Assembly: GCF_002563855.1 (NCBI RefSeq)
Contig: NZ_PDJQ01000001.1
Span: 2,356,001-2,420,000, forward strand
Length of the DNA stretch: 64,000 nucleotides
Direction: 5' to 3'
Source of the DNA: Tepidiforma thermophila
GTDB taxonomy: Bacteria; Chloroflexota; Dehalococcoidia; Tepidiformales; Tepidiformaceae
Below, in pieces: positions 19,093-40,066 of this stretch. Position numbers and translations under genes: made by a program. Within the stretch, counting starts at the first letter, position 1. The number at the start of each line of letters is the position of its first letter. The notes below the pieces were generated by a model. It was given only the letters and a program-made list of their open reading frames with translations, did not search any database and was not told where the DNA came from.

Positions 19093-20076
19093 GTGAACCC
19101 GGCAACCAGTGCAGCGGAGGCGATGGAGGGCTGGGAGCTTGCGCTCCTGGCACTGGCCCGCGGGGAGGGCGGTACCGCGCTGGCCGGGCAGGCCCGCGGC
19201 GCACACGCCCCTGGCGACCTGGATGCCGCCTTCGCGCGGTGCGCGGCGGTCACGAAAGAGCACAGCCGGACGTTCTACACGGCCACGCGGCTGCTGCCGG
19301 CCGAGAAGCGGCGCGCCGTGCGGGCGCTGTACGCCTTTTGCCGGGTTGCCGACGATATCGTTGACGAGCCGGGCGAGGAGCGGGAGGCCCGGCTCAGACA
19401 GTGGGGGCAGGCAGGGACGGGTGCGGCGCCGGCGGGAGACGACCCGGTCCTGCAAGCCTGGGCTGCCACGCGCGATGCGTACGGCATCCCGGCGCACTTT
19501 GCCGGGCAGCTCGTGGATGCCCTGGCGGATGACCTCGGCCACCGGGGGTACGACACCTTCGACGAGCTGGCCCGTTACTGCTACGGGGTGGCGTCGACCG
19601 TCGGCCTGATGTCCATGCGGATTATCGGCTGGTCGGGCGACCCTTCGCTCTACGCGATTCGGCTGGGCGTGGCGATGCAGCTGACGAACATCCTGCGGGA
19701 CGTGGCGGAGGACTGGCGCAACGGCCGGGTGTACCTGCCGCGGGAGGACCTGGAACGGTTCGGCGTGACGGATGACCAGATTGGGGCCGGGAGAGTGGAT
19801 GACCGCTGGCGGGCGCTGATGCAGTTCCAGGTGGCGCGAGCGCGCCGGCTGTACACCGGGGCGCGGCCGGGCGTTGGGCTGCTCCATCGCGACGGGCGGC
19901 TGGCGGTAACGGCGGCGCTCGAGCTGTATTCGCGGATCCTCGACGAGATTGAACGCCGGGATTATGACGTGTTCACGGGCCGGGCGAGCGTGCCCGGGTG
20001 GCGACGGGTTGCCCTGCTGCCGCTGGTCGCGTGGCGCGCGTACCGGGCGAAGCCGCCGAAAGGAGCAGAAGCGTGA
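19093..20076 (+). CDS. crtB: Phytoene synthase
   Basis: This enzyme joins two geranylgeranyl diphosphates into phytoene, the first committed step of C40 carotenoids. The first aspartate-rich motif is in [18 protein letters not shown]. The second region includes [18 protein letters not shown], then [21 protein letters not shown] with the second D-x-x-x-D. Length of 327 residues is normal. GTG 19093 has no SD and sits seven bases after a TAGCGT box. The stop overlaps the crtI GTG (GTGA). Squalene synthase is the related alternative, but linkage to crtI makes phytoene synthase much more likely. Confidence 0.93.
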
Positions 20077-21569
20077 CGCGCACGGTGGTGATCGGCAGCG
20101 GCTTCGGGGGGCTGGCGGCGGCGGTCCGGATGGCCGCCCGGGGCGACGCCGTCACGCTGGTGGAGAAGCAGCCGAAAGCGGGCGGGCGGGCTGCTCCGGT
20201 CGAGGTGGACGGGTTCCGCTTCGACGGCGGCCCGACGGTGATCACGGCGCCATTTCTCTTCGAGGAGCTGTTCGAGCTGGCGGGCCGGCGGTTCGAGGAC
20301 TACGCGACGCTGCTGCCGGTCGACCCGTTCTACCGGATCTTCGACGCCCGCGGGCGGTGGTTCGAGTACAACGGGAACTTCGACGATGTGGCCCGGCAGA
20401 TAGAGCGGTGGAACCCGGCAGACATCGAGGGGTATCGGCGGTTTCTTGAGGCGAGCCGTGCGATTTTCCAAAAAGGGTTCGTGGAGCTGGCGGATGCGCC
20501 GTTCCTGCACGTGACCGACATGCTCAAGGTGGCGCCGGACCTGCTGCGGCTGCAGTCGTACCGGTCCGTGTACGGCTTTGTTTCGAAGTACATCCAAGAC
20601 CCGTTTTTGCGGCGGTGCTTTACGTTCCACCCGCTGCTGATCGGCGGGAACCCGTTCGTGGCCTCGTCGATTTACGCGATGATCCATCACCTCGAGCGCG
20701 AGTGGGGCGTTTGGTACGCGAAAGGGGGGACCGGGGCGCTGGTTGATGCGCTGGTGCGGCTGCTCCAGGAGCTTGGCGGCGAGGTGCGGCTGGGGTGCGA
20801 GGTGACGCGCATCCGCGTGCGGGGGCGCCGGGCAACCGCGGTGGAGCTGGCGGACGGGGACGTGCTGGAAGCCGACCGCGTGATCTGCAACGGGGACGTC
20901 CCGCAGGCGTACCTCTCGCTCATCGACCCGGAACACCGGAGCTGGCGGAATTCGGACCTTCGCTACCGGAAGCTGACGGCGTACAGCATGTCGCTGTTTG
21001 TGGTGTATTTCGGGACGGACCGGCTCTACCGCGATACGCCGCTGGTGCACCACAACATCATCCTGAGCGAGCGGTACAAGGGGCTGATCCGGGACATCTT
21101 CCGGGCGAAGGGGCTGCCGCGGGACTTCTCGCTGTACGTGCATGTGCCGACGATAACTGACCCGAGCGGGGCGCCCCCAGGGCACGAGGCGTTCTACGCG
21201 CTTTCACCGGTGCCGCACCTTGGTTCTCCGACCGACTGGGAGCGGATGGCGCCGAAGTACCGCGAGCTGATTCTCGAATTCCTCGAACGGGAGTACCTGC
21301 CGGGGCTGCGGAGCCACATCGTTGCGGAGCACACGGTCGACCCGCGGCACTTCCGCGACAACCTGAATACCTACCTCGGGACGGGGTTCAGTGTGCAGCC
21401 GACGCTCTGGCAGTCGGCGTGGTTCCGGCCGCATAACCGGTCGGAGGACATCGACAACCTCTATTTCGTCGGCGCGGGGACGCACCCGGGCGCGGGCGTG
21501 CCGGGGGTAATGTCGTCGGCGAAGGTTGTCGAACGGATTATCGCGGAGGAGGAGGGGTGGCAGGCCTGA
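20073..21569 (+). CDS. crtI: Phytoene desaturase (CrtI type)
   Basis: This FAD-dependent enzyme converts phytoene to lycopene. The 498-residue protein opens [20 protein letters not shown] (dinucleotide-binding fold) and ends with the CrtI signature [21 protein letters not shown] 20073 overlaps the crtB stop and has AAAGGAG about 7 bases upstream. CrtI enzymes are peripheral membrane proteins acting on lipid-dissolved phytoene. One CrtI is enough for four desaturations to lycopene, which the downstream cyclase could then use. The number of desaturations cannot be read from sequence. Confidence 0.93.
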
Positions 21570-21606
21570 GTTGCACGAGGACGCGGAGGGCTCGACGCTG
21601 AGCGGC

Positions 21607-22917
21607 ATGGCAGAGACGCAGCCGGCCGCGGCGGACCTGCCGCGGACCGACCAGCTTTCGCCGCGGGACGGCTTCCGCGCCCTCTGGACACTGCGGCACG
21701 GGACTGCAGGGCTGTATGAGGCGCTGGAGGTTGCGCGGAGGGGATTGGGGCCGGTGTTCGAGCTGGGCTTCGGACGGTTCCGGCCGGTGGTCGTGGCCTC
21801 CCCGGGCGGGCTGCGGGAGGCGCTGGTCGAGCAGAGGGAGGCTTTTTCGTGGCGGCCGGAGGGCGACCCGGTGGCCCGGCTGTTCCGGCGGAGCATCCTC
21901 GTGACGGACGGGGAGGAGCACGACCGGGCGCGCCAGGCGATGGCGCCGGCGTTTGAGCCGGCGCGGCTGCGGGAGCAGGCCGGGGCAATCCTGGCGATTG
22001 TCGACGAGGAGGTGCGGCGGTGGCCCGCGGAGGGATGGATTGAGCCGGTCGAGGCGATGCGGCGGATTGCGTGGCGGGTATTCGAGCAGGTGTTCTTCGG
22101 CTACCGGCTCGGGCAGGAAGAGCTGGAGGCGACGCTGCCCGGGCTCCACGCGGCGCTGCGCTACATCGGGCCGGGGCTGTGGGTGCTGCGAGGGCGGGCC
22201 GGGGCGCCGCCGCGCAGGGCCGCCCTGCTGGAGGAGCATGTCCGGCGGGTGATCGCGTGGCGTGGGGAGCACGGCGAGCCCGGCGCGACGCTCCTCGACC
22301 TGCTGCTGGCGGAGTTCGCTACCGAACGGGTGCGTGACCACGCGCTGACGATGCTGATCGCGGGGCACGATACCAGCACGGCGCAGCTTTCGTGGGCACT
22401 CCATCTGCTGGCGCGGCACCCGGAATGGCTGGCGCGGGCGACGCGCGAGGCGCGGGCGGCGCCGGCCGGGGAGGGGCTCGCGGCACTCAGGGGTGACGGG
22501 CTGCCGGTCATCGATGCGGTGTTGAAAGAGGTGCTGCGGCTCTGGCCGCCGATTCACGTTGGGGGCCGGCGGACAGTGCGGGAGGTGGAGATCGACGGCT
22601 ACCGGCTGGCTGCCGGGCAGCGGGTGATGCTCTCGTACCTGCTGGTCCAGCGGGACCCGGCAACATGGGCGCGGGCAGACGTGTTCGACCCGGGGCGGTG
22701 GCTGGACGGGGGAGCGCCGGGCCCGTTTACGTATGTGCCATTCGGCGGAGGCCCGCGGAACTGCATCGGCGCAGGGTTCGCGAACCTGGAGGGGCGGCTC
22801 GTCCTGGCACGCATCCTTCAGCTGGTCGACGTTGCGGTGACACGGCGCCCGCTGCGGGGGGCGATGGGCGCGACGCTGGAGCCTCGGGGCGGGCGGCTGA
22901 AGGTGCGGCGGCGATGA
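21607..22917 (+). CDS. Cytochrome P450, likely carotenoid hydroxylase
   Basis: This 436-residue heme monooxygenase has all P450 landmarks: I-helix MLIAGHDTSTAQLSW, the ExxR motif in VLKEVLRLWPP, and the heme loop YVPFGGGPRNCIGAGFANLE with the axial Cys near residue 386. ATG 21607 is chosen; an in-frame TTG at 21571, right after a GGAGGAGGGG, would add 12 residues. The stop overlaps the cyclase ATG. Thermus CYP175A1 is a beta-carotene hydroxylase encoded next to crtB, and the position here suggests the same role (beta-carotene to zeaxanthin). That function is inference from context. Confidence 0.88.
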   Translation: MAETQPAAADLPRTDQLSPRDGFRALWTLRHGTAGLYEALEVARRGLGPVFELGFGRFRPVVVASPGGLREALVEQREAFSWRPEGDPVARLFRRSILVTDGEEHDRARQAMAPAFEPARLREQAGAILAIVDEEVRRWPAEGWIEPVEAMRRIAWRVFEQVFFGYRLGQEELEATLPGLHAALRYIGPGLWVLRGRAGAPPRRAALLEEHVRRVIAWRGEHGEPGATLLDLLLAEFATERVRDHALTMLIAGHDTSTAQLSWALHLLARHPEWLARATREARAAPAGEGLAALRGDGLPVIDAVLKEVLRLWPPIHVGGRRTVREVEIDGYRLAAGQRVMLSYLLVQRDPATWARADVFDPGRWLDGGAPGPFTYVPFGGGPRNCIGAGFANLEGRLVLARILQLVDVAVTRRPLRGAMGATLEPRGGRLKVRRR

Positions 22918-23702
22918 CGTACGGGGCGTTCCTGGGGCTGTTCCTGCTGCCGCCGATCGCGGTGCTGCTGGCCGCGCATCTCCGGCGGCCGGCAACGGTG
23001 CCGCGGCGGGAACTGGCGGGCGGCATCGCGCTGCTGGCGGTGGTCGCGGTGGCGTACACGACGCCGTGGGACAACTACCTGGTGGCCTCGGGAGCGTGGA
23101 CGTACCCGGAGGAGCGGACCTGGGGTATCCGGCTGGGGTGGGTGCCGCTGGAGGAGTACTGTTTCTTCGTGCTGCAGACGGTGATGACGGGACTGTGGGT
23201 GGGACTGCTGCTGCGCCGGCCGGGGCCCGCCGGCAGCAATCCTGCCGGCAGCGGCGCGGGGCTTCGCTGGACAGGGGCGGGGGCGCTGCTGGCGGTGGCG
23301 CTGGGCGGCGGCGTTGCGCTTGCGGGACCGGAGTCGCTCCAGTATCTCGGCCTCATCCTGGCGTGGGCGGCACCACCGCTGGCGCTGCAGGCGGGGTTCG
23401 GTGCCGAAATCCTGGCGCGGCGGTGGAGGGTCGTCCTGCCGGGGTTCGGCGTGCCCACGCTCTACCTCGCGGCGGCCGACACCATCGCGATCAGGGACGG
23501 GATTTGGCATATCACGGAAGCGACATCGACGGAGATCTTCCTGCCGGGCGGGCTGCCGGTTGAAGAGTTTGTGTTTTTCCTGGTCACGAACATGCTCGTG
23601 ACGTGGGGGCTGACGCTGCTGCTGGTGAGCGAGGGCCGGGGGCGCGCACGGGCGATGCTGGCTGGCATGCGCGGCGGATCTCCGGAGGCGCGCGGGGCAT
23701 GA
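22914..23702 (+). CDS. crtY: Lycopene cyclase, fused CrtYc-CrtYd type
   Basis: This 262-residue multi-helix membrane protein holds two copies of the heterodimeric-type lycopene cyclase domain. Copy one has TTPWDNYLVASGAWTY and WVPLEEYCFFVLQT. Copy two has DTIAIRDGIWHI and LPVEEFVFFLVTNMLV. In actinobacteria these are separate genes (crtYc, crtYd); fused forms occur in archaea, fungi and some Chloroflexota. The expected reaction is cyclisation of lycopene ends to beta- (possibly epsilon-) rings. ATG 22914 overlaps the P450 stop, and the stop overlaps the next start (ATGAG), so the operon is tightly coupled. Confidence 0.88.
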   Translation: MTYGAFLGLFLLPPIAVLLAAHLRRPATVPRRELAGGIALLAVVAVAYTTPWDNYLVASGAWTYPEERTWGIRLGWVPLEEYCFFVLQTVMTGLWVGLLLRRPGPAGSNPAGSGAGLRWTGAGALLAVALGGGVALAGPESLQYLGLILAWAAPPLALQAGFGAEILARRWRVVLPGFGVPTLYLAAADTIAIRDGIWHITEATSTEIFLPGGLPVEEFVFFLVTNMLVTWGLTLLLVSEGRGRARAMLAGMRGGSPEARGA

Positions 23703-24273
23703 GGGGAGGGTGGGTCCTCGCCGGGTACGCGCTGGGAGCGCTCCCATTTGCGGCATGGGCGGCGCGGCTGCGCGGCGCGGATATCCGGGCAGTGGGCGAC
23801 GGCAACCCGGGAGCGGCGAACGTTTGGAAGGGCAGCGGCCGGCTGGCCGGGGCGGCGGTGGCGGTTGCCGACTGGGCGAAAGCGGCAGCCCCGGTGGCGC
23901 TGGCGCTGCGCCGGGGGCCCGGGGAACGGAGCTGGTGTCAGCGGCCCTGGCGCCGATTATCGGGCACCGGACGAGCCCGCTCCTGGGCGGCCGCGGAGGC
24001 AAGGGGCTGGCTGCGACCTTTGGCGCGTGGACGGCCCTGGGCGGGCCGTGGGCGGCAGTGACCTACGGGGCTGCGCTGGCGATCGGGTTCGGGGTGTTGC
24101 GGCTGCGCGAAGGGTGGGCGGTGCTGGCGGGAGCACCGGCATTGCTGGGAGCAGCGCTGATCAATCGGCCGGGGCGGCGCGCGGAGTCGATTGCTGCATG
24201 GGTGCTAACCACGGCCTCGCTGGCGTGGGCGTACCGGGCGCGGTTCGGCTGGCCGCCCGTGCGGGAGCGATGA
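23699..24273 (+). pseudogene. plsY: PlsY-like acyltransferase, frameshifted
   Basis: Two frames together give a complete PlsY-like membrane acyltransferase. Frame one (from ATG 23699) supplies ALPFAAWAARLRGADIRAVG, DGNPGAANVWKGSGR and ADWAKA. At about 23913-23924 (GGGGGCCCGGGG) the homology moves to the -1 frame, which supplies ALAPIIGHRTSPLLGGRGGKG and the C-terminal membrane helices, ending at 24273. One extra G would restore a 191-residue protein, the normal PlsY length. As written, frame one stops at 24061 after 120 residues. PlsY acylates glycerol-3-phosphate from acyl-phosphate. Here, between a cyclase and a glycosyltransferase, it may acylate a carotenoid glycoside. A homopolymer sequencing error is quite possible. 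Confidence 0.8.
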
Positions 24274-25445
24274 TCGCCCGGGCTGGAAGGTACGTGCTTC
24301 GCCTGGCGGCGCGGGCGCTGCGGGACGACCGCGGGGTGCTGGCGTATCTCGCCGGGGTGTGTGCGAACGCGGCCTGGAATTTGCGGAACACGCCAGTGCT
24401 TGCCGATGGGAGCCGCCCGGAGCGGTGGCGACCGGCGGTTGCGGTGCTGGTGCCGGCTCGCAACGAGGAACGTGGGATCGAGCGGTGCGTTCGCTCGCTG
24501 CTGGCGCAGGAGTGGGAGGCGCTGCGCGTGATCGTTATCGACGACGGGTCGACCGACGGAACGGCGGACGTCCTCGCGCGGATCCAGCAGGAGGACGGAC
24601 GGCTGACCGTGCTTCGCGGGAGCCCGCTGCCCGACGGGTGGCTGGGGAAACCGTGGGCCTGCGCCCAGCTGGCAGAGGCCGCAGCCGATGCGGAGCTGCT
24701 CGTCTTCGCGGACGCGGACACGTGGCACGGGCCGGGCATGCTCGCAGCAGTCGCGGCGGTGATGGAGCGGCAGCGGCTGGACATGCTTTCGGTGGTGCCG
24801 CGGCAGGAGCTGGGCGGGATGTGGGAGCGGTGGACGGTGCCTATCATCCCGTGGGCGCTGATGACCCACCTCTCGCCGGCTGCAGCGCAGCGGTTCGGGC
24901 TGGCACTGGCGGCGGGGGCGGTCGGGCAGGTGCTCGCGTTTCGGCGGGAGGCGTACGAGCGGCTTGGCGGCCACAGGGCTGTCCGGGGCGAGGCGGCCGA
25001 GGACGTCGCGTTCGCACGGGGCGCAACGCGGATGGGTCTGCGCTGGCGGGTGGCGTCGGGCCGCGAGGTGAGCGCGTGCCGGATGTACCAGGGCCGGAGC
25101 GAGGCGCTGGCGGGACTGGAGAAGAACCTGTTCCCGGCGATGGGCGGGCGGACGGTGCCCTACGTGCTGGCCTGGACCTGGCTGCTGCGAGCGTTCACCT
25201 GGCCGGCGCTCGCACTGGTTAGCGGCGGATTGGCCGGGCGGAGACGGGCCACAGCGGCGGCGGGCGCCGAGCTCATCCTCGGGGCGGCCACGTGGCTGGC
25301 CGTCGCGCGGAAGTTCGGGCTGCCGCTGCGGCTGGCGGCCGAGGGACCGGTGGTCGTGGCTGCGGGAGCGTTTGCAGCCGCGCGGTCGCTGGCGGCGTGG
25401 CGTACGGGCAGGGCGGCGTGGAAGGGGCGGCGGCTGGCGGGGTAG
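24270..25445 (+). CDS. Family 2 glycosyltransferase, probable carotenoid glycosyltransferase
   Basis: This 391-residue GT2 enzyme has an N-terminal catalytic domain starting VAVLVPARNEERGIERCVRS, with the nucleotide-binding VIVIDDGSTDGTADVL, the DxD-like LVFADADTWHGPGML, and an acidic GEAAEDVAFARG further on. Hydrophobic segments near the C-terminus anchor it to the membrane. It resembles CruC/CrtQ/HpnB-type glycosyltransferases that modify carotenoids or hopanoids. ATG 24270 overlaps the stop of the acyltransferase gene. As the last gene of the crt operon it most likely glucosylates a hydroxycarotenoid; the sugar and acceptor are inference. It converges on the sortase gene, 9 bases away. Confidence 0.8.
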   Translation: MIARAGRYVLRLAARALRDDRGVLAYLAGVCANAAWNLRNTPVLADGSRPERWRPAVAVLVPARNEERGIERCVRSLLAQEWEALRVIVIDDGSTDGTADVLARIQQEDGRLTVLRGSPLPDGWLGKPWACAQLAEAAADAELLVFADADTWHGPGMLAAVAAVMERQRLDMLSVVPRQELGGMWERWTVPIIPWALMTHLSPAAAQRFGLALAAGAVGQVLAFRREAYERLGGHRAVRGEAAEDVAFARGATRMGLRWRVASGREVSACRMYQGRSEALAGLEKNLFPAMGGRTVPYVLAWTWLLRAFTWPALALVSGGLAGRRRATAAAGAELILGAATWLAVARKFGLPLRLAAEGPVVVAAGAFAAARSLAAWRTGRAAWKGRRLAG

Positions 25446-27090: not shown

Positions 27091-28311
27091 TCAGGCCTGG
27101 ACGGCCTGCTCCAGCCGGCCGTTGATGTGCTTGCGGATAAAGGTGGCCTGGCGGAGGTGTTCGAGGTAGTTGTCGACCTGGGCCTTGCGGAGCTCCCGCA
27201 GCTTCTCGCGGCCGCGGGCGATGTTGTCGACACTGCCGCCGAGGAGGATCGCGAGGGGTTCGCTGACGGCAGGAACAAGCCACTCTTTGCCCATGCGGGA
27301 TTCGGCTTTGTTGAAGTAGAGGTTCTGCTCGTCGCGGCGGTCGGGGAGCTTGAAGAGCATGTGCTTCAGCCGCTCGATGTGGTAGTCGAGCATGCGCTTA
27401 CGGTCGCGGGCGACGAGGCGATAGAGGTCGCGCTCGAGCTGGTTCTGGGCGAAGGCGTCGCCGTGGGAGAAGAGGGTGTAGAGCATGCTGTCCTGGACGA
27501 AGAGGATGGCAGCGAGTTCGGGGAAGGTGCGGGCCTCGCGGGCGACGCGGGAGAAGTCGGTCGGCGCCTGGAGGCCGAGGCCACCGCCGTTGGCGAGGGC
27601 GCGCTTGCGGAAGGCCTCGCTGTGGCGGGCGAGGTCGTAGATCACCGTGGAGAGGAAGAGCTTGAGTTCGAGGAAGCCGTAGGAGATTTCGGGGAGCCAG
27701 CCTGACCACAGGGCGCCGGCGACGTAGGCGCGCTCGGACTGCTCGGTCATGAACTGGCAGACGGCGCGCTCGATGTCGTGCGGGAGGGGCTCGAGGCTGT
27801 TCCAGTTGAGGTCGGTGGCAGAGACCCAGCGGTCCCGGATGGCTTCTTCGTAGAGGGGGATGCAGCAGTCGGCCCAGACGAGGGCTTTTTCGAAGATGGT
27901 GTACCCCATGTCTTCGACGACGGGGTTGGGGTAGGAACCGCGGGCGATTTCGGAGCGGTTGGTCCAAACGTCGGGGACGTCGCCGTAGGTGCCGATCATG
28001 AGGTCGGCGATGGTGAGACCCATGGCGGGGTCTTTGGGGCGTGCGCGGATGCCCCACTCGGTGGGGACGTGCATCCAGGAGAGGTCGCGGGGGATGGCGG
28101 CCTGGCCGCCCTGGAGGAATTCTTTGGCGCGCTTCCCGTCGACGCCGCCGCGGAGGGCCTGCCAGATGACCTGGAGGCTGTGGCCCTTGGCGAGGGCGAG
28201 TTCGATGAGGCCCTCTTCCCAGCCGAGTTCACGGACACGGTCGCGGGCTTCCTGGGGGATCTCGACCTGGGCGGCCTGGGCGGCGCGGGCGAGGGCTTCT
28301 CCGGTCGACAT
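27091..28311 (-). CDS. Ferritin-like (RNR R2-like) paralogue lacking diiron ligands
   Basis: This 406-residue protein is clearly homologous to the neighbour at 28385-29428, sharing CIPLYEEAIRDRW, LEPLPHDIERAVCQF, RKRALANGGGLGLQ and LLGGSVD. Of the six diiron ligand positions seen in the neighbour, only one His is kept (His230 in IYDLARH). The others are replaced: Glu to Ala195, Glu to Leu227, Glu to Ser275, Glu to Arg304 and His to Met307. It has an extra N-terminal helical region of about 75 residues. GGAGG lies ahead of ATG 28311. It is the second gene of a two-gene unit and probably forms a non-catalytic partner subunit. Confidence 0.8.
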   Translation of the reverse strand: MSTGEALARAAQAAQVEIPQEARDRVRELGWEEGLIELALAKGHSLQVIWQALRGGVDGKRAKEFLQGGQAAIPRDLSWMHVPTEWGIRARPKDPAMGLTIADLMIGTYGDVPDVWTNRSEIARGSYPNPVVEDMGYTIFEKALVWADCCIPLYEEAIRDRWVSATDLNWNSLEPLPHDIERAVCQFMTEQSERAYVAGALWSGWLPEISYGFLELKLFLSTVIYDLARHSEAFRKRALANGGGLGLQAPTDFSRVAREARTFPELAAILFVQDSMLYTLFSHGDAFAQNQLERDLYRLVARDRKRMLDYHIERLKHMLFKLPDRRDEQNLYFNKAESRMGKEWLVPAVSEPLAILLGGSVDNIARGREKLRELRKAQVDNYLEHLRQATFIRKHINGRLEQAVQA

Positions 28312-28384
28312 GGGGGTACCTCCGGGCGGGCTTGGAAGGGCGGGGCAGGCCGCCCCGCTGGGATGGACAGGCGATGGGCCGGGG

Positions 28385-29428
28385 TTAGGCCGGGTCGAGG
28401 AACTGGGCCATGAGCGGTCCGAGGCGCTGGCGGCGGTCGCCGAGGCCGGCGACGGTGAGGCGGTGGACGTACTCGTTGATCTGCCGTTTGCGGAGGAGGA
28501 GGAACTTCTGAAGGCCTTCGTCGAACTTATCGACGCCGCCCCCGAGGAGGATGCAGAGGGCTTCGAAGACGGGCGGGAAGGTGACGTCACCGGAGCCGCC
28601 GCCGGCTGCGTCGCCTTCGGCCTTATCGAGGTAGTGGTGGATTTCTTCGCGGCGCTCCGGTTCGGTGTCGAGCACGTACTTGAGGTGCATGACGCCGAAG
28701 GCGAGGTGGCGGGACTCGTCCTGGGCGCTCATGCGGAAGATGCGCTTGTCGGCCTCAGTCTGGCCGATGAGTTCGCCCATGCGGAACATGGACTGGACGA
28801 AGCCTTCGGCCTGGACGTGCATGAGGACGGACATTTCGGTGAAGTCGCGGGCCTCGATGAGGGTGCGGAGGCCGAGGCCGGCGCCCTGGGCGAGGAGGCC
28901 GCCGCCGTTGGCAAGCGCGCGCTTGCGGAAGACGTCGGTGTGGCGGGCCTCGTCCATGATCTGGGTCATGAGGAAGAGGCCGGCTTCGAAGTCCTGGGCG
29001 GAGACGAACGGCATCCACTGGCCGGGGACGTCGCCGGCGATGAACTCGACTTCGGTGAGCATGGTGGCGAGCTGGCACATGGCGCGCTCGAGCTCGTCGG
29101 GCAGGGGCTCGAGGGTATCCCAGGGGATGTCGCGGGCGGAGCTCCACTGGCGCTGGGTGGCCTCTTCGTAGAGCATGAGGCAGTTTTCGGCCCAGACGTC
29201 GGCCTTGGACTGGTAGTTGGGGCCGAAGCGCTGGGCGCCGGGGCGCGGGATGGCGCCGCGCATCCGGTAGGTCATGTCGCCGGCTCCGCGGGCGGTATCG
29301 GCGTAGCGGCCGAGGTTGATTTCTTTGAGGGTGAGGCCCTTTTTGCCGGGCTCGGCGGAGGTGGCGTCCTCGTAGAGGTTGAGCCAGGACAGGTCGAGGC
29401 TGGATTCGGTGGCGGGATTGGCTGCCAT
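28385..29428 (-). CDS. Ferritin-like diiron oxidase/oxygenase (RNR R2-like)
   Basis: This 347-residue helical protein has a full carboxylate-bridged diiron set: Glu126/128 (TEVEF), Glu160 and His163 (MDEARHTDVF), Glu208 (HVQAEGF), and Glu238 and His241 (QDESRHLAFG). The spacing is that of R2-like ferritins such as R2lox and AurF-type oxygenases. Annotation pipelines often call this group 'ribonucleotide-diphosphate reductase beta', but no class I alpha subunit is here and the window has a class II enzyme, so an oxidase or N-/C-oxygenase role is more likely. ATG 29428 has GGAGAC upstream. A palindrome near 29502 may control it. Confidence 0.82.
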   Translation of the reverse strand: MAANPATESSLDLSWLNLYEDATSAEPGKKGLTLKEINLGRYADTARGAGDMTYRMRGAIPRPGAQRFGPNYQSKADVWAENCLMLYEEATQRQWSSARDIPWDTLEPLPDELERAMCQLATMLTEVEFIAGDVPGQWMPFVSAQDFEAGLFLMTQIMDEARHTDVFRKRALANGGGLLAQGAGLGLRTLIEARDFTEMSVLMHVQAEGFVQSMFRMGELIGQTEADKRIFRMSAQDESRHLAFGVMHLKYVLDTEPERREEIHHYLDKAEGDAAGGGSGDVTFPPVFEALCILLGGGVDKFDEGLQKFLLLRKRQINEYVHRLTVAGLGDRRQRLGPLMAQFLDPA

Positions 29429-29501
29429 GGGGGTCTCCTGGGGCCGGCGTCTATGCTCGCGATAGCCTACATCTTGGTGTGCAGGGGCGGAAGGGCCGGA
29501 A

Positions 29502-29515
29502 TTACCGGCGGGTAA
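29502..29515. promoter_or_regulatory. Inverted repeat, candidate operator of the diiron pair
   Basis: TTACC-GGCG-GGTAA, a 5-bp inverted repeat around 4 bases, sits 74-87 bp before the diiron start codon, between divergent genes. PadR and DtxR regulator genes are nearby. This is sequence-only evidence. Confidence 0.3.
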
Positions 29516-29625
29516 ATTTGGTCGAGGCGAAGCTTCGAAACCGGGGCGCAGGTGGACTGGCGTCACCTCTTATCAACCGGGACGCGGCTGCCGATACCTG
29601 TGGTAGAAACCGGGAGGACACGAGC

Positions 29626-29811
29626 ATGACCAGGATGGAGAAAGCCTGTCCCTTTACGGCAGCGACGCGTGCAGCCCACTGCGAGCGGTGCTGGACGGCG
29701 CACGGCGGGGTGCCGCCGTGTGTGGCGGCGTACCTCGGCGGCAACCCGGCGGCCGAGGGCGTGATCCGGCTGGAGGTCCTGGAGCGCGCTGCGACCAGGC
29801 GGGCGGCCTAG
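29626..29811 (+). CDS. Small Cys-rich protein, possible metal-binding
   Basis: This 61-residue protein starts at ATG 29626 after GGGAGGAC. Four Cys residues fall in the first half (ACPFTAATR, HCERCWTAH, PPCVAAYL), a pattern C-x(11)-C-x2-C-x(9)-C that could bind zinc or an iron-sulphur cluster. The second half is plain helix (GVIRLEVLERAATRRAA). It is divergent from the diiron pair and convergent with a PadR regulator. Its function is unknown, and the link to the diiron genes is only positional. Confidence 0.6.
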   Translation: MTRMEKACPFTAATRAAHCERCWTAHGGVPPCVAAYLGGNPAAEGVIRLEVLERAATRRAA

Positions 29812-29838: not shown

Positions 29839-30399
29839 TCAGGGCGCCGGCCGGGATGCGGCTCTGGCGCGGAGGATGCGCTCGGCCTCGTCGGCCCAGG
29901 CGAGGAACGCCTCGATGAACTGGATGCCTGCGCGAAGGGTAAGGTAGGGACCGAGGAACGCGGTCGGGACGGCCGCGGGGTCGGCGCCTTCGAACGCGGC
30001 TTCGATGGCGCGGTAGGCTGCGAGGCGCTCCTCCTGCTGGCGGCGGTGCGTTGCGAGGGCCTCGATGGCGCGCTGCGGTTCGACGAGGCCGTAGCTCCAG
30101 ACTTTGACGAGGAACTCGTCTTTCGTAAGGGTGAGCGGAGACGGGGTGAGCACCCAGTCGGCGAGGTGAGCGAGGCCCCGGGCGGTGATGGTATAGACGC
30201 GTTTGTCGGGCTTGCCGACCTGGGGGACGGCGCGGCCGGCCACGAGCCCTTCGGATTCGAGGCGGGCGAGCTCGGGGTAGATCTGCTGGGCGCGGGCGTG
30301 CCAGAAATAGCCCACGGACTGTTCGAAGCGACGGGCGATCTCGTAGCCGGACAGTTCGCCGGCCGTCAGGAGGCCGAGGATGGCGAAGCGCAGCGACAT
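29839..30399 (-). CDS. PadR-family transcriptional regulator
   Basis: This 186-residue repressor has an N-terminal winged helix (LRFAILGLLTAGELSGYEIA, then IYPELARLESEGLVAGRAV and KRVYTITARGLAHLADW) and a helical C-terminal dimerisation domain (PADR C-terminal type). PadR proteins sense phenolics or stress and often control adjacent genes. I chose ATG 30399, giving MSLRFAIL; an upstream in-frame ATG at 30462 would add 21 atypical residues. It is divergent from the DtxR gene, sharing an 80-bp control region, and convergent with the small Cys-rich gene. Confidence 0.85.
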   Translation of the reverse strand: MSLRFAILGLLTAGELSGYEIARRFEQSVGYFWHARAQQIYPELARLESEGLVAGRAVPQVGKPDKRVYTITARGLAHLADWVLTPSPLTLTKDEFLVKVWSYGLVEPQRAIEALATHRRQQEERLAAYRAIEAAFEGADPAAVPTAFLGPYLTLRAGIQFIEAFLAWADEAERILRARAASRPAP

Positions 30400-30479
30400 C
30401 TCCGCGAGTTTCGCGGGTGTGGGCCCGATGCGCCAGCAGAATTTCCCGGGAGCGGGCGGCATGCCATGATCGGCGTGCC

Positions 30480-31178
30480 ATGCCGAAACAGGTCAGGAAT
30501 GTTGCCAGCGACGATTATTTGACAGCGATTTACCGGATGAGCCACGACGAGGGCCAGGACGTCATCGCCGTGCGGCTTGCGGACCGGCTGGAGATCACGC
30601 CGCCGTCGGTTGCGGGGATGCTGAAGCGGCTGATGCGGGACGGGCTGGTGCACATCGATGCGAAGAAGGTGATTCACCTGACGCCCGAGGGGTTTCGGAG
30701 AGCGGAGCAGATGGTGCGGCGGCATCGCCTTGCGGAGTGCCTGCTGACCGATGTGCTGAAGGTGGACTGGTGGCGGGCGTACGAGGAGGCGCACCTCCTG
30801 GAGCATGGGATTTCGGACATCACGGAGCGGAACCTGTACGAGATGCTTGGGCGGCCGAAGAAAAGCCCGTTCGGCTATCCGATACCGGGGCCGGGCGCGC
30901 CGCAGAAGCTTTCGATGGTCACGCTGGGCGACCTGAAGGAGGGGCAGGAGGCGGAGATCGACCGGGTGTTTGAAGAGGATGAGCAGCTTCTGCGGTTCTT
31001 CGACGAGGAGGGGATTCGCCCGGGGGTGAAGGTCGTCATCGAAGAGGTTGCGCCCTACCGCGGGACGATTACGGTGCGGGTGGGCGAGCGGAGGATTGTG
31101 CTGGGCACCCCGGTGGCCAACAAGATCTGGGTGGTGCAGCCGGCGCGGGCGGGAACTTCGGCCGAAACGCGGCGTTAA
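30480..31178 (+). CDS. DtxR/MntR-family metal-dependent regulator
   Basis: This 232-residue protein has an N-terminal winged-helix (YLTAIYRMSHDEGQDVIAVR, then LEITPPSVAGMLKRLMRDG) followed by the metal-binding and dimer domain (QMVRRHRLAECLLTDVLK, EEAHLLEHGISD) and a C-terminal FeoA/SH3-like domain (about 150-222: LGDLKEGQEAEIDRV). Such proteins repress iron or manganese uptake when metal is abundant. ATG 30480 starts at PKQVRNVASDDYLTAI as in homologues. It is divergent from PadR. The metal (Fe or Mn) cannot be decided from sequence. Confidence 0.9.
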   Translation: MPKQVRNVASDDYLTAIYRMSHDEGQDVIAVRLADRLEITPPSVAGMLKRLMRDGLVHIDAKKVIHLTPEGFRRAEQMVRRHRLAECLLTDVLKVDWWRAYEEAHLLEHGISDITERNLYEMLGRPKKSPFGYPIPGPGAPQKLSMVTLGDLKEGQEAEIDRVFEEDEQLLRFFDEEGIRPGVKVVIEEVAPYRGTITVRVGERRIVLGTPVANKIWVVQPARAGTSAETRR

Positions 31179-36735: not shown

Positions 36736-37149
36736 TTGCACGATTACTCCAAGGTTCTCCCGCAGGCCACGCCGGAGACCCAGCCGTTTTGGGATGGGTT
36801 GAAGGAGGGCAAGTTGATGCTCCAGCGGAACAAGGCGACGGGGAAGGCGTACTTTCCGCCGCGGCCGTTCGACCCCCGCGACCCGTTCGCGGAGGTGGAG
36901 TGGTTTGAGGCGAGCGGTAAGGGGCGGCTGCTGAGCTACGTCATCAGCCACCGGCCGCCGCCGGGGTTCGAGGCGCCGTTCGCGATCGCGGTTGTCGAGA
37001 CGGACGAGGGCATCAAGATGATGACGAACATCATCGATTGCCCGCAGACGCCGGAAGCGCTCCAGCTGGACATGCGGCTCGAACTGGCGCCGACGAAGGT
37101 GAATGACGAGATCACGCTGCCGACCTGGCGGCCGGCGAGGGAGGCGTAG
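36736..37149 (+). CDS. DUF35 OB-fold protein (thiolase partner) without zinc ribbon cysteines
   Basis: This 137-residue protein pairs with a thiolase-like enzyme. DUF35 proteins have an N-terminal rubredoxin-like zinc ribbon and a C-terminal OB fold. Here the ribbon region reads LQRNKATGKAYFPPRPF then DPRDPFAEVEW, with every Cys position replaced, while the OB fold (GRLLSYVISHRPPPGFEAPF) is intact. The likely start is TTG 36736, 7-8 bases after AGGAAGG. It ends two bases before the thiolase start. DUF35-thiolase pairs act in acyl-CoA degradation, for example as steroid side-chain retro-aldolases; the substrate here is unknown. Confidence 0.82.
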   Translation: MHDYSKVLPQATPETQPFWDGLKEGKLMLQRNKATGKAYFPPRPFDPRDPFAEVEWFEASGKGRLLSYVISHRPPPGFEAPFAIAVVETDEGIKMMTNIIDCPQTPEALQLDMRLELAPTKVNDEITLPTWRPAREA

Positions 37150-37151
37150 CC

Positions 37152-38300
37152 ATGCCGAAACCGGGAAGTGTTGCCATTGTGGGCGCGGCGGAGGTGGTTT
37201 CGCCGGAGGGGCGGTTCCCCAATCTTTCGCAGCTGGGGCTGCATGCCCGGGCAGCAATCCTCGCCATGCAGGAGGCCGGGCTGAAGCCGTCGGACATCGA
37301 CGGTGTGGCCTGTGCGGGTGCGAGCCCGACCGAGGTCGCGTTCTACCTGGGCATCACGCCGACGTACGTGGACGGTACGGCCGTGGGCGGGTGTTCGTTT
37401 ATGATCCATGTGCGGCACGCGGTGGCGGCGATCGAAACGGGCCTTGCGAAGACCGTGCTGATTACGCACGGGGAGAGCGGCCGGTCGGGCATCGGGCGGG
37501 GCGGATTCGGCTTCGCGCGGCAGTCGCTGAATGCCCAGTTCGAAGGCTGGACCGGGCCGATGGGTCCGCCGACGCTCTTCACGGTGCCCGTGCTGCGGTA
37601 CATGAAGACGTACGGGGTCACCGAGGAGCACCTGGCGATGGTGGCGGTGGTCCAGCGCGAGTATGCGGCGCGCAACCCGAACGCCATGATGAAGGACCCA
37701 ATCACCGTCGAGGATGTGCTGAACTCGCGGATGATTGCGTATCCGTTCCGGCTGCTGATGTGCTGCCTGGTGACGGACGGCGGCGGGGCGCTCATCCTGA
37801 CCTCGGCGGACCGGGCGAAGGACTTCCCGACGAAGCCGGTGTACGTCCTCGGGACGGGCGAGAGCGTGGAGACCCCGATGGTGAGCCAGATGGAGGATTT
37901 CACGAGCTCGCGGGCGTTCCGGGTTGCGGGGCCGCGGGCCTTCCAGGAGGCGGGGATCACGCACGACGACGTCGACCACCTGATGATTTATGACGCGTTC
38001 GCGCACCTGCCGCTCTACGGGCTCGAGGACCTCGGGTTCGTGGGCCGGGGCGAAGCGGCGCAGTTCATCTGGGAAGGGAACACCCGGGCGAATGGCAAGC
38101 TTCCGCTGAACACCAACGGCGGGGGCCTGAGCTACACCCACTCGGGGATGTACGGGATGTACGCGCTGCAGGAGAGCGTCCGGCAGTGCCGCGGGACGGC
38201 GCCCGCGCAGATTCCCGGCGTGAAGGTGAGCGTTGCGCACGGGGTCGGCGGGATGTTCGGCGCATCCGGGACGGTGGTGCTTTCGAACGAGCGGCCGTAA
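37152..38300 (+). CDS. Thiolase-like acetyl-CoA acetyltransferase (SCP2 type)
   Basis: This 382-residue non-decarboxylating thiolase relative begins VAIVGAAEVVSPEGRF. The nucleophile-position Cys is in AVGGCSFMIHVRHAV, YDAFAHLPLYGLEDLGF corresponds to the second catalytic block, and LNTNGGGLSYTHSGMYGM carries a conserved His. The final block VAHGVGGMFGASG lacks the usual C-x-G Cys, as in SCP2/Ltp-type thiolases that act as aldolases. It follows the DUF35 gene by two bases, so the two products likely form a complex. Reaction may be thiolysis or retro-aldol cleavage of a CoA ester. Confidence 0.85.
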   Translation: MPKPGSVAIVGAAEVVSPEGRFPNLSQLGLHARAAILAMQEAGLKPSDIDGVACAGASPTEVAFYLGITPTYVDGTAVGGCSFMIHVRHAVAAIETGLAKTVLITHGESGRSGIGRGGFGFARQSLNAQFEGWTGPMGPPTLFTVPVLRYMKTYGVTEEHLAMVAVVQREYAARNPNAMMKDPITVEDVLNSRMIAYPFRLLMCCLVTDGGGALILTSADRAKDFPTKPVYVLGTGESVETPMVSQMEDFTSSRAFRVAGPRAFQEAGITHDDVDHLMIYDAFAHLPLYGLEDLGFVGRGEAAQFIWEGNTRANGKLPLNTNGGGLSYTHSGMYGMYALQESVRQCRGTAPAQIPGVKVSVAHGVGGMFGASGTVVLSNERP

Positions 38301-38324
38301 GGTTCGCCGGGAATGATGCGATTG

Positions 38325-38354
38325 ACGGGGCGGGCCGGCGCCGGCCCGCCCCGT
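38325..38354 (+). terminator. Perfect 30-bp inverted repeat after the thiolase gene
   Basis: ACGGGGCGGGCCGGC meets its exact complement with no loop at 38325-38354; only TT follows, so it is a strong hairpin without a T-tract. It could act as a terminator or RNA-stabilising element before coaE. Confidence 0.5.
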
Positions 38355-38377
38355 TCCCATGCTGAAGGAGGACGGAG

Positions 38378-39100
38378 ATGCCGCTCGTGATTGGACTTGC
38401 GGGGACGATTGCCGCCGGGAAATCCACGGTGGCGCAGCTGCTGGTGGAGCGCGGGGCGCACCACTGCGATGCCGACAAGCTGGTGCACCGGCTGTACGAC
38501 CCGGGCACGCCCGGGTTCGCGCGGGTGGTGGAGGCCTTCGGCGAGGAGATTATCGGGCCGGACGGCTCTATCGACCGGAAGGTGCTGGGGGCGAAGGTCT
38601 TCGGGAAGCCGGAGGAGATGAACCGGCTGACGCGGGCGATCGGCTCGATTACGGAGGCGGTGAAGGGCGTCATCGATGGGTGGCGGGCCGAGCTGGGCGA
38701 CGACGCGATTTGCGTGATGGAGGCGGTGAACCTGATGGAGCCGGGGTACGCGCGCTGGTGCGACCAGACGTGGCTCATCGGGGTCGATGATGCGATTGCG
38801 CGCCGGCGGCTGATTGAGACCCGCGGCATGAGCGAGGAGGAGGCGAACCAGCGGCTGGCGAGCATGGTGCCGCTCGAGGTTCGCGCGCCGGGCGCCGACT
38901 GGGTGTACCGGAACAACGGGACGCTGGAGGAGCTGCGTGAGGCCGTCTACGGGGAGCTGGACCGGCTGCTGACGAAGCGGGCGGCCGGCGAGCCGCTGGA
39001 GTCGAGGTTCCCGGCGTGGTGGGCGGCCTTCCTTGAGCGGAACCGGGAGCGGCTGAAGGCGACCGGGGTGACGATCCCGGAGCAGGCAGCAGGCAGCTGA
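38378..39100 (+). CDS. coaE: Dephospho-CoA kinase-like protein
   Basis: CoaE phosphorylates dephospho-CoA at the ribose 3'-OH, the last step of CoA synthesis. The 240-residue protein has a P-loop in IGLAGTIAAGKSTVA, HHCDADKLVHRLYDPGTPG (CoA-binding region), and a lid RRLIETRGMSEEEANQRL followed by GADWVYRNNGTLEELREAV, all typical of CoaE. It is about 40 residues longer than usual because of a C-terminal extension (FPAWWAAFLERNRERLKATG). Some divergence means it may be a CoaE paralogue. AAGGAGGACGGAG precedes ATG 38378. It lies between a thiolase and two MaoC genes. Confidence 0.82.
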   Translation: MPLVIGLAGTIAAGKSTVAQLLVERGAHHCDADKLVHRLYDPGTPGFARVVEAFGEEIIGPDGSIDRKVLGAKVFGKPEEMNRLTRAIGSITEAVKGVIDGWRAELGDDAICVMEAVNLMEPGYARWCDQTWLIGVDDAIARRRLIETRGMSEEEANQRLASMVPLEVRAPGADWVYRNNGTLEELREAVYGELDRLLTKRAAGEPLESRFPAWWAAFLERNRERLKATGVTIPEQAAGS

Positions 39101-39177
39101 TGCCCGGGCTGCATGGCGGGAGCGGGCGGCCTCGGGTAGGATGCGCCCGCACATTCTTCGCACCGAGGAGGCTTGCG

Positions 39178-39657
39178 ATGGCTGATGAAGGCTTCGAGTT
39201 CCCGGTCGACCGGACGCAGGTGATGCTGTTCGCGCGGTCGCTCCTGGACATCCGGCCGGAGTACTGGGACCCGAACGACCCGGCGACGAAGGCGATCGGG
39301 GGCATTACGGTGCCGCCCACCTTCGTGCAGTGCAGCGCGCACTGGCAGCCGGATTATCCGCTCGACCTGACCCGCCCGCGGAAGGAGCCGCGCCAGCCGC
39401 GGCCGGAGGGGCAGGGCGGCGGGGGCCTCGGCCGCGGCCTGCATGCGGAGCAGCACTACGAGTACCATCACCCGATTTTTGTCGGGGATACGCTGACGGT
39501 GACGACCAGGCCGGGGCGGCGCTGGGAGAAGGAGGGCCGCCGCGGCGGGCGTCTCCAGTTCTCGGAGACGATTACGGAGTACCGGAACCAGGACGGGGTG
39601 CTGTGCGTGACGGCGATCAGCGTGGGCGTGCAGACCGAGAAGGCTGTGGAGCAGTAG
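39178..39657 (+). CDS. MaoC-like dehydratase, HadA-type N-terminal hot-dog protein
   Basis: This 159-residue hot-dog protein resembles FAS1-type dehydratase subunit HadA/HadC or N-terminal MaoC domains. It begins EFPVDRTQVMLFARSLLD, has GITVPPTFVQCSAHW, and LHAEQHYEYHHPIFVGDTL. It lacks the full catalytic D-x-N-P-x-H-x-D hydratase motif, which is carried by the next gene, so the two likely form an A/B heterodimer. GAGGAGG precedes ATG 39178, and a TAGGAT lies upstream at about 39137. The partner begins 10 bases after its stop. Confidence 0.83.
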   Translation: MADEGFEFPVDRTQVMLFARSLLDIRPEYWDPNDPATKAIGGITVPPTFVQCSAHWQPDYPLDLTRPRKEPRQPRPEGQGGGGLGRGLHAEQHYEYHHPIFVGDTLTVTTRPGRRWEKEGRRGGRLQFSETITEYRNQDGVLCVTAISVGVQTEKAVEQ

Positions 39658-39667
39658 GAGGAGCGAG

Positions 39668-40066
39668 ATGCCGCTGCAGGTTGGCGATACGCGCGAGCAG
39701 GTGGTGATCGAAAAGATCAACCGAACGCACATCGTGAAGTACGCGGGGGCGAGCGGGGACTTCAACCCGATCCACCACGACGAGGTGTTCGCGAAGGAGG
39801 TTGCCGGCTACCCGTCCGTGTTCGCCCACGGAATGCTCTCGATGGGGCTCACGGGCCGGGCGCTTACGGACTGGCTCGGGGTGATGGCCCTGAAGCGGTA
39901 CGGCGTCCGGTTCACGCGGCAGGTGTGGCCGGGCGACACGCTGACGGCAAAGTTTGAAGTCACGAAGGTGGAGGATGGCCTCGCGACCATCAAGGTGGTC
40001 ACTGTGAACCAGAACGGCGAGACGGTGATCGAGGGCGAGGCCGTCGCAAAGGCGGACGCCGTCTAA
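39668..40066 (+). CDS. MaoC-like (R)-hydratase, HadB-type catalytic subunit
   Basis: This 132-residue hot-dog enzyme has the hydratase-2 motif GASGDFNPIHHDEVFAKEVA with the catalytic Asp and His, then SVFAHGMLSMGLTGRAL. It would hydrate 2-enoyl-CoA or dehydrate 3-hydroxyacyl-CoA (or -ACP) together with the preceding subunit. AGGAGGAGCG lies ahead of ATG 39668. With the DUF35/thiolase pair and CoaE upstream, the region looks devoted to acyl-CoA chemistry. A bidirectional terminator follows and separates it from thrS on the other strand. Confidence 0.87.
   Translation: MPLQVGDTREQVVIEKINRTHIVKYAGASGDFNPIHHDEVFAKEVAGYPSVFAHGMLSMGLTGRALTDWLGVMALKRYGVRFTRQVWPGDTLTAKFEVTKVEDGLATIKVVTVNQNGETVIEGEAVAKADAV

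Follow-up and report, generated by a model that had tools for sequence, protein, structure and literature searches.

In bacterial multicomponent monooxygenases, the hydroxylase is built from a catalytic alpha subunit and a paralogous beta subunit that lacks the metal ligands, and yeast ribonucleotide reductase combines an active R2 protein (Rnr2) with a paralogue (Rnr4) which has lost its iron ligands and has Lys/Arg residues in the site. To our knowledge R2lox is a single-gene enzyme, and we know of no degenerate paralogue in the group of VlmB azoxy synthase and aldehyde-deformylating oxygenase (ADO). The Rnr2-Rnr4 complex of yeast ribonucleotide reductase has been described (PMC4245953), and the principle of an active subunit with a metal-less twin is already known from phenylacetyl-CoA epoxidase, in which the catalytic diiron subunit PaaA, insoluble on its own, is accompanied by PaaC, a subunit of the same fold that is thought to be structural (PMC4498308). 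Known active/metal-less heteromers of ferritin-like proteins can have diverged so far (17% identity for PaaA/PaaC) that it is difficult to trace how they arose.

The 64,000 nt window analysed here, a stretch of the genome (2.74 Mb, single contig) of the thermophilic Chloroflexota bacterium Tepidiforma thermophila, contains two co-directional genes on the minus strand, here named A and B, with B located 73 nt downstream of A (Table 1). The initial annotation had assigned a full R2-like diiron set to A, and all six ligands were confirmed; its statement that the sequence around the lost ligands of B stays similar was borne out by BLASTP (38% identity over 319 columns, E 3e-68). The residues it had placed opposite the ligands of A were also found, with the exception of Ser275: as a result of a one-residue gap in the A/B alignment it is Asp274 that faces Glu208, leaving B with one exact ligand (His230) and one carboxylate (Asp274). 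Besides this alignment, the initial annotation had lacked the second A/B pair, the SCP2-like protein C, the N-terminal domain confined to B and the shared putative operator. Pfam and NCBIfam scans of A and B gave no family above cut-off. In Tepidiforma flava (NZ_CP115149, L079, 5776-7039), A is split into three frames next to an intact B, and sequencing errors are the likely cause, since a nearby HD-GYP gene is broken as well.

Table 1. Features of the A/B locus and of related loci; positions are those of the window unless the chromosome is named.
Feature	Position	Strand	Remark
Gene A, R2-like (ferritin-like) metal oxidase, 347 aa	28385..29428	-	full ligand set
A Glu128, helix B ligand	29045..29047	-	
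A Glu160xxHis163, ligands	28940..28951	-	
A Glu208, ligand	28805..28807	-	
A Glu238xxHis241, ligands	28706..28717	-	
Gene B, paralogue without metal site, 406 aa	27091..28311	-	
B N-terminal helical extension, ~70 aa, not in A	28102..28311	-	profile matches
B Ala195, opposite A Glu128	27727..27729	-	alignment
B Leu227xxHis230, opposite A Glu160/His163	27622..27633	-	alignment
B Asp274, opposite A Glu208	27490..27492	-	alignment
B Arg304xxMet307, opposite A Glu238/His241	27391..27402	-	alignment
Inverted repeat TTACC-N4-GGTA(A), putative operator	29502..29515	.	74-87 nt upstream of A
PadR-type regulator	29839..30462	-	lies between A and DtxR; seen at this place in Tepidiforma and in one further lineage (L035)
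DtxR/IdeR/MntR-type metal-dependent regulator with FeoA domain	30480..31178	+	upstream of the pair, opposite strand
Second A/B pair	chromosome (G000) 167296-169546		same chromosome; equals L084 6267-8577
Gene C, SCP2-like	chromosome 751682-752104		single copy in the Tepidiforma genome; unlinked to both A/B pairs

AlphaFold models of the monomers, built from these alignments, were of moderate confidence (pLDDT 77 for A and 80 for B), and Foldseek returned R2lox as the closest fold for both (E 1e-4 for A, 6e-4 for B). With VIA-align, the two models matched VlmB/protein 60 with Z 23, ADO and R2lox with Z 21-22 and MMOH with Z 20-21; the best match of A was to 8wvr and 6d9f (Z 23.2) of the VlmB/ADO group, which also contains the nearest PDB sequence to A (profile E 2.7e-4), with R2lox within about 2 Z units. 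In these models, B retains the bundle fold over the whole core.

One genome from each of 84,980 bacterial and archaeal species was scanned, an approach which reaches close relatives only. The 60 loci obtained all belong to Chloroflexota MAGs, to Tepidiforma or to bacteria without a phylum in the record; matches were present in 38/61 near relatives, mostly as an adjacent A/B pair, and many genomes contain several genes of the A/B family, with up to nine matches. A plasmid search gave only one distant ferritin-like protein, from Xenorhabdus (27% over half of the query). The co-occurrence of the two genes, on which the initial annotation had made its reading depend, was strong: there are 42 distinct adjacent A/B pairs, with junctions of -3 to 941 nt (many <15 nt), and although A stands without a neighbouring B at many loci, B was found elsewhere in 17/17 such genomes tested, so that unpaired A genes were dropped as evidence against the pair. 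The distances within A and B correlate with a mirror-tree r of 0.93, a value which includes shared species history (maximum of 2000 permutations 0.23). A genetic partnership of A and B is very likely, and a physical A/B heteromer is probable.

Directly behind B at many loci, and behind a lone B at others, is a gene for a divergent SCP2-like protein of approximately 147 aa (C); in L085, L122 and L123, C comes after the unduplicated oxidase. Protein C has no direct Pfam match (PF02036), its profile finds SCP2 proteins (5.8e-7 per genome; SCP2 3.4e-14), and C was missed when the Tepidiforma genome was searched with the SCP2 family itself. Of 400 Chloroflexota genomes, the same 17 gave strong matches to C and to the A/B family; two further genomes have only a distant A relative. 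Shared ancestry may partly account for this co-occurrence, and is not an obvious full explanation since the 17 genomes span seven families. The ferredoxin gene located behind C in L085 possibly encodes an electron donor. Approximately 7 kb from the A/B pair, the window contains DUF35-like, thiolase-like and MaoC-like genes (36736-40066, plus strand, judged by eye), and DUF35-like and thiolase-like genes are also found behind C in L111.

The linkage of a lone B to C only, unlinked from A (L105-L107), is one of three observations that could suit a different role, in which B is a separate moonlighting pseudoenzyme, for instance a ligand sensor or regulator acting via its N-terminal domain, and controls the expression or activity of A without a fixed heterodimer; the others are that this small helical domain is present in B alone, and that A genes outnumber B genes in several genomes. 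We consider such a role unlikely, since co-inheritance and co-divergence are as tight as for subunits, the gene junctions are very short or overlapping, and the modelled fold of B is kept across the whole core.

Scanning for palindromes upstream of A was at first unproductive; the inverted repeat TTACC-N4-GGTAA was first spotted by eye in promoters and then tested. In the window, 0.02 occurrences of TTACC-N4-GGTA(A) are expected by shuffling, and the repeat is found at the same place upstream of A in many Tepidiformaceae loci. Within 1.14 Mb of collected loci, 12/14 occurrences were upstream of A, some of these 12 being from loci closely related to each other, and including four that were scored as "off" by the script because the gene caller had missed A there. 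Genome-wide, the pattern gave 16 strand-matches versus 4 for the control, a moderate enrichment. Other copies are few and at least one is inside a gene; among them are copies in front of a ferredoxin-P450 operon, of the genes for two acyl-CoA dehydrogenases and of those for an SDR and an ABC binding protein. At 183000-185206 of the chromosome (L165), TTACC-N4-GGTAA precedes two P450 genes together with a gene for a single-cluster ferredoxin. A short cysteine-containing ORF (CPFTAATRAAHCERCWTAHGG...) is present upstream of A on the opposite strand (29479-29811, plus strand), and similar sequence is also found upstream of A in several relatives. Elsewhere in the window, a run of genes resembling carotenoid biosynthesis was noted by eye (19123-25445, plus strand; phytoene synthase, desaturase-like proteins and a glycosyltransferase).

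The DtxR-type gene divergently adjoins the pair in those Tepidiformaceae clade 1 loci that hold this flank, where its product may add metal control; it is confined to this clade, and was rejected as a member of the core system. Its position could also suit an A/B pair that is a device for metal homeostasis or oxidative stress (an R2-like ferroxidase or a Mn/Fe sensor) instead of a lipid oxygenase, but this is improbable, since no DtxR regulator is found beside the second pair or in other families, and the SCP2-like companion, the ferredoxin and the acyl-catabolism promoters point to oxidation of an organic substrate.

The ligand set E-E-H-E-E-H was intact in 72/72 A-type sequences of the non-redundant set, and none of the 54 B-type sequences of that set had more than two exact ligands (none in 3, one in 36 and two in 15), so that ligand loss in B is not due to chance. 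The patterns at the ligand positions of B are clade-specific: A-L-H-D-R-L/M in the clade of the window, G-A-K-K-S-H in the second pair, and N-A-H-D-K-H, G-A-Q-N-V-Q and others elsewhere. The position of Glu238 was Arg or Lys in 31/54, with Asp at the Glu208 position in 29 of these 31, and another 9 of the 54 had Lys at both the His163 and Glu208 positions. The Arg/Lys-Asp pair looks like a salt bridge replacing the metal, and we infer by extension from yeast Rnr4, where a salt bridge takes the place of the metal, that B may be filled in the same manner. Use of other residues as ligands, which the initial annotation had named as the point on which its reading could fail, was not supported: there is no substitute ligand set, and no compensating invariant Glu, Asp or His is common to the three B clades examined. 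The absence of such a set and the strong co-occurrence of A and B uphold the initial view of B as a partner that has kept the fold and lost the metal as regards fold and ligand loss, whereas the structural or regulatory role it attached to B can be put forward conditionally. It is very improbable that B binds a different or mononuclear metal through its remaining His/Asp and new ligands; the clade of the window does keep His230 and Asp274, and another clade has two His and an Asp, but the retained positions vary from clade to clade without any set common to all, and the Arg and Lys substitutions listed above speak against a metal at this site.

When the ligand columns were left out of the tree, A formed one clade (bootstrap 99, SH-aLRT 93) and B another (100/100), and the two were sisters, which places their origin in a single ancient duplication and therefore indicates that metal function was lost once, after which the freed positions drifted. 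The profile of the N-terminal domain of B was matched by 82/83 B-type genes, and among A-type genes it was matched only in L085 and L123 (E 1e-6 to 1e-7), the closest unduplicated relatives, whose ligand set is complete as well; the other unduplicated relatives L122 and L108 lack the domain. Since the nearest unduplicated relatives hold both metal site and N-terminal domain, the simplest reading suggests reciprocal loss after the duplication, with B losing the metal site and A the N-terminal domain. The states before and after duplication, together with split and multiplied forms, all survive in one phylum, and the path from a homodimer to a catalytic subunit and a pseudo-subunit with reciprocal loss is therefore directly testable. 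Locus L111 (5832-8764) has an A-like gene, a partner and C in a row, the partner being degenerate (Q-Y-H-N-T-H) and falling outside the B clade; this is possibly a second, independent origin, although the branch is long and the placement unsure.

The pairwise dN/dS of B was 0.40 (NG86, approximate), which indicates constraint and, against 0.17 for A, a faster evolution than that of A. That B is a decaying duplicate heading for loss by ordinary pseudogenisation, as its higher dN/dS and the varied substitutions at the ligand positions might imply, is hardly credible, since dN/dS is well below 1 and B has remained unbroken in 33 non-redundant tree lineages after a single old duplication and was retained wherever A is present in the genomes tested. 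On this record of its sequence, B is an old, conserved pseudo-subunit and not a decaying gene.

The reading of A and B as a heteromeric, two-subunit R2-like oxygenase, with C in the same system and a lipid or acyl substrate, is as a whole reasonably likely. Subunit A would bind a dinuclear metal centre (diiron or Mn/Fe) and activate O2. Subunit B, with the same R2-like fold, an empty site often filled by the Arg/Lys-Asp pair and the N-terminal domain lost from A, would stabilise A and stand in for the second protomer of the ancestral homodimer; docking of a partner is a probable further function. Protein C probably carries or presents the lipid or acyl substrate, electrons would come from a ferredoxin, and the TTACC-N4-GGTAA site may link expression of the pair to that of genes for acyl-chain catabolism. 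Fatty acids and their derivatives are considered important for cultured Tepidiforma, which are strict aerobes (PMC10284905). We give the lipid role of the A/B system an even chance, and hydroxylation or desaturation is our best guess for the reaction. A more specific version can be offered tentatively, in which the system is a three-part lipid oxygenase consisting of the metal subunit A, an obligate metal-less twin B with the ancestral docking domain, and C as a dedicated SCP2-type lipid carrier; within a cell, a single C would then serve several A/B pairs that differ in substrate range. Counting against the oxygenase reading are the unpaired A at many loci (despite a B elsewhere in those genomes), the location of C away from both pairs in Tepidiforma, the lack of a direct Pfam match for C, the possible share of ancestry in its co-occurrence with A and B, the small number and moderate enrichment of the other operator sites, the moderate confidence of the models and the faster evolution of B. 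Should the link to the SCP2-like protein be true, this would be an unrecognised lipid-oxidising system in Chloroflexota; among open-access papers, we found none that describes the A/B family, and nothing relevant that joins ferritin-like proteins, SCP2 and an oxygenase.

Compared with the described systems, A and B are closest in fold to R2lox and have weak NCBIfam matches to it, but the assignment of A to R2lox was rejected, as its best NCBIfam hit (32.5 bits) was far below the cut-off of 194. In R2lox the cross-linking Tyr precedes the fourth Glu ligand by about 5 residues, and A residues 194-208 (RDFTEMSVLMHVQAE), which cover the 14 residues before Glu208, contain no Tyr. With VlmB and ADO, A shares only approximately 20% identity over the bundle. 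The multicomponent monooxygenases resemble A in the fold match to MMOH, but A has 347 aa versus approximately 510, and there was no Phenol_Hydrox/MMOH Pfam match and no regulatory or reductase gene beside A. A class I RNR R2 was rejected as well (PF00268 E 0.2, 11.4 bits versus a cut-off of 33.6); A has Phe167 at the position of the radical tyrosine, and no PF00268 match was found anywhere in the genome. The likeness to Rnr2/Rnr4 lies in the combination of an active subunit and a paralogue without metal ligands. The comparison with PaaA/PaaC made in the initial annotation is a fair analogy: here too, catalytic and ligand-less subunits of the same fold are encoded together, and the ligand spacing of A (32/48/30) resembles that of the PaaA ligands E42, E72, H75, D126, E155 and H158 (PMC4498308). 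The analogy does not extend to kinship, as neither A nor B has a PaaA_PaaC Pfam match; no paaB or paaE gene was recognised in the neighbourhood, the family having the SCP2-like companion instead of PaaB/PaaE, and A and B are 38% identical versus 17% for PaaA and PaaC. By analogy, the A/B family is best read as working like PaaA/PaaC or Rnr2/Rnr4, while being a member of neither.
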